From NCBI GenBank assembly GCA_030690545.1, contig JAUYGN010000079.1, positions 1-39,385 on the forward strand: a stretch of 39,385 bases of DNA, in the 5' to 3' direction. The position numbers and the translations under genes are program-made. This DNA is from Solirubrobacteraceae bacterium (GTDB taxonomy: Bacteria; Actinomycetota; Thermoleophilia; Solirubrobacterales; Solirubrobacteraceae). Under the pieces are notes generated by a model. It saw only the letters and a list, made by a program, of their open reading frames with translations. It had not been told where the DNA came from and made no database searches. This document shows positions 38,117 to 39,385 of this stretch, one piece after another. Within the stretch, counting starts at the first letter, position 1, and every line of letters begins with the position of its first letter.

Positions 38117-38277
38117 GCGCACCCGCCAGCCGCAAACGCCGCCCCTCCTAGCAAGCCCGGCGTGCGTCCTCCGAGTACGACGGGCCTGACCAAGTCCTCA
38201 CGATGAGGGCGCCGCGAGAAGACGGTCACCGCAGACAGGAGTGACGCCGTCAACCCGAAGTGACCGTCGGAGCATGC
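38117..38277. other. 161-base gap with a repeated GTGAC dyad
   Basis: No coding frame. GACGGTCAC (38221-38229) is inverted at GTGACCGTC (38260-38268), and GTGAC recurs at 38241. It precedes the TAGCCT box. Confidence 0.5.
38221..38268. promoter_or_regulatory. candidate operator upstream of CBS-nhaA
   Basis: A perfect nine-base inverted repeat (GACGGTCAC/GTGACCGTC) with 30 bases between, plus a further GTGACGCCGTC copy (38241-38251). The array ends ten bases before the -10 box, covering the -35 region, where a regulator would act. Confidence 0.45.
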
Positions 38278-38283
38278 TAGCCT
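38278..38283 (+). promoter_or_regulatory. -10 box (TAGCCT) of CBS-nhaA
   Basis: The TAGCCT box is followed by a folded leader, not by a start codon, unlike the other boxes here. Confidence 0.5.
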
Positions 38284-38436
38284 CGTTGGCGGTGTGCCGG
38301 GAAGCCTGGTCGGCGATCTGTTCGTCGACCCCTTTCGTGGAGGCTTCCTGGTATCCCTGTCGCGTCTCGCCCCGACCGTCGCTGTTGCCGGTCAAGGCCC
38401 ATCCGTTCGACGTTGTCCGTCCTGTCTGGGGCGTGC
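38284..38436 (+). promoter_or_regulatory. structured leader RNA before CBS-nhaA (possible riboswitch)
   Basis: A 13-base stem TGCCGGGAAGCCT (38295-38307) with AGGCTTCCTGGTA (38341-38353), including G-U pairs, encloses a nine-base hairpin GGTCGGCGA/TCGTCGACC (38308-38316, 38322-38330), and a third GACCG/CGGTC (38374-38378, 38389-38393) lies further down. Leaders before nhaA are known Li+ or Na+ riboswitches in some phyla; I do not recognise one of those consensus patterns here. Confidence 0.45.
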
Positions 38437-38895
38437 GTGATAGCCGTGTCGGTCGGGGATCTCGTTGTGCGCGATGCGCCGACGATCGATGTCTCGGACT
38501 GCGTCGAGCATGCGGTGCGGGTGCTCGTGGCGAGTGGGCTGCCGGCGGTGGCCGTGGTCGACGCGAACGACCGGTCCGTGGGGACGTTCGGCGAGCGCGA
38601 GTGCCTCGCGGCGATGCTTCCCGGCTGGGTCGATCTGCTCTCGGGCGCCGCGTTCGTGCCGCGCGACCCGCAGCACCCCCTCGCCCTCGACCAGAGCTGC
38701 CGCGCGGAGCCGGTCGCCGCGTACATGAACCCGGAGGACGTCGGGGCGGGGCCGGGGTGCTCGGACCTTCAGATCGCTGAGACGTTCCTGCACCACCCGG
38801 GCCTGATCCTCCCGGTCGTGGATCGCGACGGCGTCCGCGGCGTCGTCACCCGCTCCGACTTCGTCCACGCCGTCGCCCGCCGATTCCTTGGCTGA
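38437..38895 (+). CDS. CBS-domain protein
   Basis: This protein of about 152 residues has two CBS motifs (VSVGDLVVRDAPTIDVSDCVE; later LILPVVDRDGVRGVVTRSDFVHAV). CBS pairs bind adenosine nucleotides or S-adenosyl compounds and gate partners. GTG 38437 is a guess; GTG 38446 and TTG 38413 also fit. It overlaps nhaA by eight bases, so the two are coupled, and it may control or be controlled with the antiporter. Confidence 0.75.
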   Translation: MIAVSVGDLVVRDAPTIDVSDCVEHAVRVLVASGLPAVAVVDANDRSVGTFGERECLAAMLPGWVDLLSGAAFVPRDPQHPLALDQSCRAEPVAAYMNPEDVGAGPGCSDLQIAETFLHHPGLILPVVDRDGVRGVVTRSDFVHAVARRFLG

Positions 38896-39385
38896 CCCGG
38901 CACCGCCCGGGCCCGGCCACCGCTGGCGCGTGCGGCGGGGGCTCGGGGCGGCGTTGGAGTTCATCCGCAACGAGACCGTTGGTGGCGCGATCCTGCTCGT
39001 GGCGGCGGTCGTCGCGGTCGTCTGGGCAAACGTCGGCGACGGCTACGAGGCGCTGTGGACGACGGAGCTGACGATCGGCGCGGGGCCAGCGGCGATCACC
39101 GAGGACCTGCGCCACTGGGTCAACGACGGGCTCATGGTCCTGTTCTTCTTCGTCGTGGCCTTGGAGGTCAAGCGCGAACTCGTCGTCGGCGAGCTCACCG
39201 ACCGCCGTGCGGCGGTCGTCCCCGTGCTCGGCGCCGTCGGCGGCGTGGCGGTGCCCGCCGTGGTCTTCCTCGTGGTGACCGGCACGTTGGGCGATGGCGA
39301 GGCGACCCGCGGCTGGGCGATTCCCGCCGCGACCGATATCGCGTTTGCGGTCGGGGTCCTGGCGCTTCTCAGCCGCTGGGTGCCC
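38888..39385 (+). CDS. nhaA: Na+/H+ antiporter NhaA, right-truncated
   Basis: The first 166 residues of NhaA, running off the right edge. ETVGGAILLVAAVVAVVWAN (helix 1), LRHWVNDGLMVLFFFVVALEVKREL (helix 2 with the Glu78-Val-Lys region), and AATDIAFAVGVLALLS, where the transport Asp pair begins (only the first Asp is seen), identify it. It expels Na+ or Li+ in exchange for protons. TTG 38888 overlaps the CBS stop; GTG 38930 is an alternative. Confidence 0.92.
   Translation, partial: MADPAPPGPGHRWRVRRGLGAALEFIRNETVGGAILLVAAVVAVVWANVGDGYEALWTTELTIGAGPAAITEDLRHWVNDGLMVLFFFVVALEVKRELVVGELTDRRAAVVPVLGAVGGVAVPAVVFLVVTGTLGDGEATRGWAIPAATDIAFAVGVLALLSRWVP

Follow-up and report, generated by a model that had tools for sequence, protein, structure and literature searches.

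A short conserved hairpin in the 5' leaders of cation-transporter genes of Actinobacteria and Chloroflexota as a candidate ion- or pH-responsive RNA switch

One question raised by the leader of a CBS-nhaA operon in a Solirubrobacteraceae bacterium is how antiporter genes are controlled by ions in this phylum. To our knowledge, the sensing of sodium, potassium and pH for antiporter control is largely unknown in Actinobacteria such as Streptomyces, Arthrobacter and the mycobacteria, and the known Li+ and Na+ riboswitches are either rare in this group or have not been reported from it. The operon lies at the end of the stretch of 39,385 nucleotides that was analyzed here (contig JAUYGN010000079.1, hereafter the window). 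A preliminary description of the leader had listed a 13-bp stem, an inner 9-bp hairpin, a third hairpin, a -10 box and a 9-base inverted repeat, and each of them is present in the sequence (Table 1). The sequence also agrees with the long leader claimed there: the -10 box predicts a transcription start at 38291, well upstream of 38353 and approximately 146 nt before the GTG of the CBS gene at 38437. Moreover, the leader is folded beyond chance, its energy of -107.3 kcal/mol compares with a mean of -86.4 kcal/mol after shuffling (z -4.75) and none of 200 shuffles was as low. The inverted repeat is only weakly above chance, since 1.3% of region shuffles equalled its nine bases, and by inspection the dyad was not seen in either paralogous leader of the same genome. 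Possibly, it is a protein-binding operator that acts in addition to the RNA switch discussed below.

Table 1. Positions of features in and around the CBS-nhaA leader of the window
Feature	Position	Strand	Basis or remark
9-base inverted repeat, left arm GACGGTCAC	38221-38229		sequence; possible operator
9-base inverted repeat, right arm GTGACCGTC	38259-38267		sequence; in -35/spacer region
-10 box TAGCCT	38278-38283	+	TANNNT spacing shared with other motif copies
Core RNA motif, 25 nt, GGUGUGCCGGGAAGCCUGGUCGGCG	38291-38315	+	covariance model and conservation
Hairpin A, 5' arm GCCGG	38296-38300	+	covariation
Hairpin A, loop GAAGNCUGG, 9 nt	38301-38309	+	near-invariant; sensing role presumed
Hairpin A, 3' arm UCGGC	38310-38314	+	covariation
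13-bp stem (putative OFF stem, preliminary description), left arm	38295-38307	+	excludes hairpin A
13-bp stem, right arm	38341-38353	+	takes in AGG of Shine-Dalgarno-like GGAGG
Inner 9-bp hairpin, left arm (core GGUCGGCG plus A)	38308-38316	+	likewise excludes hairpin A
Inner 9-bp hairpin, right arm UCGUCGACC	38322-38330	+	
Shine-Dalgarno-like GGAGG	38339-38343	+	
Possible leader ORF, start CUG 38348 or GUA 38351	38348-38440	+	speculative
Third hairpin, GACCG 38374-38378 / CGGUC 38389-38393	38374-38393	+	
CBS-domain protein gene, GTG start	38437-38895	+	ORF and Pfam PF00571
nhaA Na+/H+ antiporter gene, runs off the window	38888-39385	+	Pfam PF06965

A compact hairpin motif downstream of the promoter

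The conserved element of the leader is a smaller hairpin (38296-38300 / 38310-38314, hairpin A) rather than the stems named in the preliminary description. Its consensus of 25 nt reads GGNGN-GCCGG-GAAGNCUGG-UCGGC-R, the shared stretch can also be written as GGNGN-GCCGGGAAGNCUGGUCGGC-R, and the loop is almost fixed with N free and U sometimes replaced by G. The search of the own genome with the leader identified three motif copies, each preceding a CBS-nhaA or nhaA operon; besides the window copy, one is situated on contig C5 before a CBS-nhaA pair and one on C144 directly before another nhaA. A fourth match of the leader was weak and fell within a coding frame, and the fourth nhaA gene of this genome (C34:3332-4540, L317) is without the motif. 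At the level of the class, 88 places were found in 74 of 299 genomes when one mismatch was allowed, versus about 11 for a reversed control pattern, while the sample of 396 genomes from the phylum contained at least 157 places that fit a pattern with free stem letters. The genome scan returned at least 119 stretches, nearly all from Actinobacteria, including Streptomyces, Amycolatopsis, Arthrobacter, Micromonospora, Nocardia, Mycolicibacterium, Microbacterium and Frankia, and exact copies predominated over few near misses among the matches listed at up to three mismatches. Chloroflexota carry the motif as well, in about a tenth of the genomes sampled and in 21 of 47 genomes of one class; viral contigs contained no copy. 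A covariance model made from 67 distinct cores scored the window copy at 43.7 bits (E 7.6e-8) compared with 16.6 bits for the best background match, and it recognized an ACC..GGU variant, a stem type missing from the model's sequences, with 34.7 bits. Matches lacking a promoter were regarded as due to chance and excluded; one of them, L308, is situated, as judged by reading, where a ribosomal protein gene ends.

The motif has a defined place relative to the promoter. Of 206 motif copies, 153 have a TANNNT box 16-21 nt upstream of the GCC, with 18 nt as the most frequent distance, and the window motif begins 7 nt after its -10 box, at the predicted transcription start. Given the fixed -10 spacing, the start is expected at the GG of GGNG, i.e. 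38291 in the window, and the motif would thus probably form the 5' end of the transcript. Furthermore, the copies are on the sense strand relative to the following gene. Divergently oriented genes have one copy each, as observed at L139, L188 and L198, where the two copies are approximately 120-150 bases apart.

The existence of hairpin A is supported by covariation. An unbiased stem test was performed by searching the 396 genomes with a pattern in which three letters were left free on each side. Among the matches listed, 10 of the 19 variants other than GCC..GGC were fully complementary (four GUC..GAC, three UCC..GGA and one each of GCU..AGC, GAC..GUC and GGC..GCC), and the -10 box was at its usual place in nine of these ten, while it was absent there in the non-complementary ones that were read. 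The pairs 1-19, 2-18 and 3-17 showed 10 double changes and 99.4% pairing, values of which neither was reached in any of 500 shuffles. The three UCC..GGA cases may represent a single event, because they come from one genus and one gene; these loci (L293, L305 and L306, genus g156) precede a gene for an ABC transporter ATPase, possibly of a sodium exporter. At the flanking positions -1 and 20, the combinations U-G, C-A or A-A prevail. Two other structures of the core were rejected. A rival hairpin GCCGG..CUGGU displayed no covariation, and a G-quadruplex from the four GG tracts is refuted by the GUC..GAC and GCU..AGC variants, which keep the stem but destroy the fourth tract.

Downstream partners that compete with the hairpin

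In Chloroflexota, where the motif precedes CPA1, nhaA, CaCA, CitMHS/NhaD-like, DUF2254 and AA_permease_2 genes, the 5' arm of hairpin A doubles as the 5' arm of an intrinsic terminator. It pairs with a downstream segment that leads straight into a U-run, e.g. GGAGCGCCGGG...CCCGGCGUUUUUUU, and such terminators with at least 8 pairs were found in 21 of 34 loci, whereas 0.6 would be expected from shuffles. The Ktedonobacteria-type loci add ACC..GGU pairs, and here the terminator arm changes along with the stem. When position 1 is A in place of G, a U appears in both the partner within hairpin A and the terminator arm, i.e. all three strands covary, and position -1 also varies jointly with the terminator arm. 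One strand with two evolutionarily maintained partners indicates a terminator/antiterminator switch, and at the sequence level the Chloroflexota layout is clearly of this type. From the logic of the terminator we infer that hairpin A represents the ON state. The short form of the Ktedonobacteria-type loci has its terminator near +30 (at +27 in an nhaA leader), and in a longer form (L339, L342, L347, L356 and L357) it is located near +90 with an extra hairpin between.

Terminators are essentially missing from Actinobacteria, where only 2 of 253 loci have one with at least 8 pairs. Instead, the stretch immediately ahead of the start codon is enriched in complements of the core's 3' portion (GGUCGGCR), with 53% versus 32% at a lower and 20% versus 7% at a higher threshold; no enrichment was detected among these loci for partners of GGGAAG or of the 5' arm. 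Of the two stems of the preliminary description, the inner 9-bp hairpin has a 5' strand with the enriched partner, whereas strong partners of the 13-bp stem's 5' strand are no more frequent in Actinobacteria (47.3%) than in shuffles (46.2%), and only the two paralogous leaders of this genome retain that stem, as looser equivalents. A pairing of the core's 5' strand downstream of a GGAGG was found in all three leaders of the genome, with helix scores of 31.4, 21.4 and 19.8, and the window form of this pairing is the 13-bp stem itself, including the AGG of 38339-38343. It cannot form together with the small conserved hairpin, and forcing hairpin A in the window frees part of the Shine-Dalgarno-like sequence.

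Several observations count against a switch of this kind in Actinobacteria. The OFF fold of the window is predicted to be 30 kcal/mol more stable than the fold with hairpin A, so that switching would have to be kinetic. Forcing hairpin A changed the accessibility of the start region in Actinobacteria only little, from 0.42 to 0.47, and the alternative pairing, although enriched, occurs in only about half of the loci. With terminators missing and only kinetic switching conceivable in the window, the mechanism is less certain in Actinobacteria than in Chloroflexota. Regarding the features expected of a riboswitch, a conserved structured RNA in 5' leaders is present, and an expression platform mutually exclusive with the sensor fold was found in Chloroflexota and partially in Actinobacteria.

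The three leaders of the own genome (window, L002 and L003) also contain an open frame a few bases past the GGAGG, with lengths of 30, 33 and 56 amino acids. In all three cases it ends on a stop that overlaps with the start of the following gene, in the window as UGA over the GUG of the CBS gene, which suggests translational coupling. The window frame is without a standard start codon.

Associated genes and relation to known RNAs

At least 190 of the 246 genes downstream of the motif encode Na+/H+, K+/H+ or other cation transporters. The families were assigned by one representative per cluster, and start codons by a simple script. NhaA dominates with 115 genes, followed by CPA1 (20), CaCA (16), CitMHS/NhaD-like (14), AA_permease_2 (13, KimA-like by inspection only), Mrp subunit A (7), CPA2 (4) and single cases of KUP, TrkH and TrkA, which together give 192; a KdpD-like protein was also found once. 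CBS proteins follow in eight cases plus the window. Further families, DUF2254 (7), ABC ATPase (7), alpha/beta hydrolase (5) and PPDK_N (3), have no obvious link to Na+, which counts against a Na+ switch. Both phyla have the motif next to genes for DUF2254 membrane proteins (L086, L089, L092, L093, L105, L134 and L355), suggesting that this uncharacterized family plays a role in ion or pH homeostasis.

No family of Rfam 15 describes the motif. Up to an E value of 10, the window leader gave no match, including to the nhaA-I, nhaA-II and DUF1646 models, and six related loci had none at the motif; the distinction from the known nhaA riboswitches made in the preliminary description can thus be maintained. 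The Na+-I riboswitch (DUF1646 motif) is reported from Firmicutes, Proteobacteria, Acidobacteria and Verrucomicrobia. It resembles the motif in its regulon, which comprises Na+/H+ antiporters, Kef-type and other cation transporters (PMC9337991), but is built from two extended stems, P1 and P2. The Li+-I/Na+-II (nhaA-I, RF03057) and Li+-II (nhaA-II) riboswitches activate the expression of nhaA-type transporters (PMC9646797). Like them, the motif is situated in the 5' leaders of nhaA and related cation-transporter genes, whereas its sequence and structure differ. Among 60 actinobacterial genomes sampled, nhaA-I was found in one; in the same class, a match of the Li+-I type above the gathering score is located at G104:C1:48608-48662 (L360). 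The c-di-AMP riboswitch (ydaO, RF00379) controls K+ and osmotic genes. Its 134-nt model did not match the window leader and identified separate loci, five of them above the gathering score in the own genome (contigs C24, C94, C8, C112 and C11), and it is missing from 8 of 12 genomes bearing the motif. A weak likeness to Chloroflexi-1 RNA (RF01698, 20.3 bits) and guanidine-I (RF00442, 12.4 bits) in one locus was dismissed, since these scores are far under the gathering scores of 80 and 63, and either the core differs in its letters or promoter DNA is part of the alignment. Finally, the open-access literature that was searched, including work on nhaA leaders in Actinobacteria and the two large RNA-discovery papers PMC8632094 and PMC11109978, contained no description of the motif. 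Collectively, the motif resembles known ion riboswitches in its apparent role and is a member of none of the families tested.

A proposed switch and its alternatives

The recurrence of one hairpin at the 5' ends of cation-transporter genes, where it can compete with a terminator, suggests a so far unreported RNA on/off switch in the balance of salt or pH. In the mechanism that we somewhat favor as the best explanation, the leader would open with hairpin A as a compact sensor (38296-38314, with GGUGU in front), which would be one half of a two-state RNA switch. In the presence of the signal, its near-invariant loop would be stabilized and the operon would be ON, whereas in the absence of the signal a downstream segment would take one strand of hairpin A and the operon would be OFF. 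In Chloroflexota this segment would make the intrinsic terminator with the U-run, and in the window the segment 38341-38353 would also bury the Shine-Dalgarno-like sequence. It is very likely that the motif is a conserved RNA switch element, and the RNA alone probably senses the signal. Na+, another alkali ion or pH is slightly favored over a nucleotide as this signal. It is presumed here that hairpin A turns the operon ON, that the RNA binds the ligand directly with no protein involved, and that Na+ (or another alkali cation, or pH) is the signal; a riboswitch of the ON type for Na+ or for a related ion or pH signal appears to be the most likely reading. An ion-sensing RNA had already been considered in the preliminary description, which is partly supported overall: a regulatory leader of a cation-transporter operon is supported, and ion sensing by a switch has become the preferred interpretation. 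The idea that sensing, or simple attenuation, is the task of the extended 13-bp/9-bp structure itself agrees with the very stable fold and the looser equivalents in the two paralogous leaders, but it is extremely improbable, as the partner of the 5' arm is no commoner than by chance in Actinobacteria and the conserved hairpin is incompatible with this structure.

As a selective ion aptamer, the conserved element would be very small, which counts against direct sensing. A trans-acting RNA-binding protein might act on the hairpin as antiterminator or translational activator, with the protein sensing salt. The RAT hairpins, which are bound by BglG, LicT or SacY and overlap terminators, provide a precedent; the layout is similar with a short conserved hairpin over the 5' arm of the terminator, although the sequence differs, and near-invariant loops are common at protein sites. 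We consider this rather unlikely, because the BglG-type RNA-binding domain CAT_RBD (PF03123) occurred in none of 12 motif-bearing genomes checked, no regulator gene was seen recurring next to the motif, and two phyla and many gene families share the same loop. A DNA operator placed directly behind the promoter would explain the fixed distance to the -10 box and the dyad GCCG-NNN-AG-N-CT-NNN-CGGC with its odd length and free centre base. It is very unlikely in view of the compensatory changes and the strand-specificity: the stem changes only as complementary pairs into several sequences, a freedom not expected of a DNA half-site, the motif is always in sense orientation with an own copy for each of two divergent genes, the central letters GGA / GGU are conserved yet asymmetric, and the terminator arm covaries. 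A riboswitch for another signal than Na+, i.e. c-di-AMP, K+, Li+, NH4+ or the proton concentration, deserves more weight, even if we regard it as the less probable option. The K+ systems (KUP, TrkH, TrkA, KdpD-like and KimA-like APC proteins) and CBS proteins in the gene set favor it, the flanks -1/20, mostly U-G or C-A, could be pH-sensitive, and an NhaA orthologue of Streptomyces is linked to alkaline stress in PMC12892944 (citing Kim 2011). On the other hand, nhaA dominates the gene set, and c-di-AMP has its separate riboswitch in the own genome, which most of the motif genomes checked do not possess.

For the preferred reading of an ion- or pH-responsive riboswitch, chances are about even that the motif represents an undescribed class of Actinobacteria and Chloroflexota, in which a hairpin of approximately 25 nt would directly sense Na+ (or an alkali ion or pH) and turn on Na+/H+ and K+ transport via antitermination or translation. 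If true, this class would be among the smallest riboswitches known, and the motif would supply a very small RNA for studying ion recognition. Moreover, one compact element before nhaA, nhaD-like, CPA1, CaCA, Mrp and KimA-like genes would define a phylum-wide salt/pH regulon.
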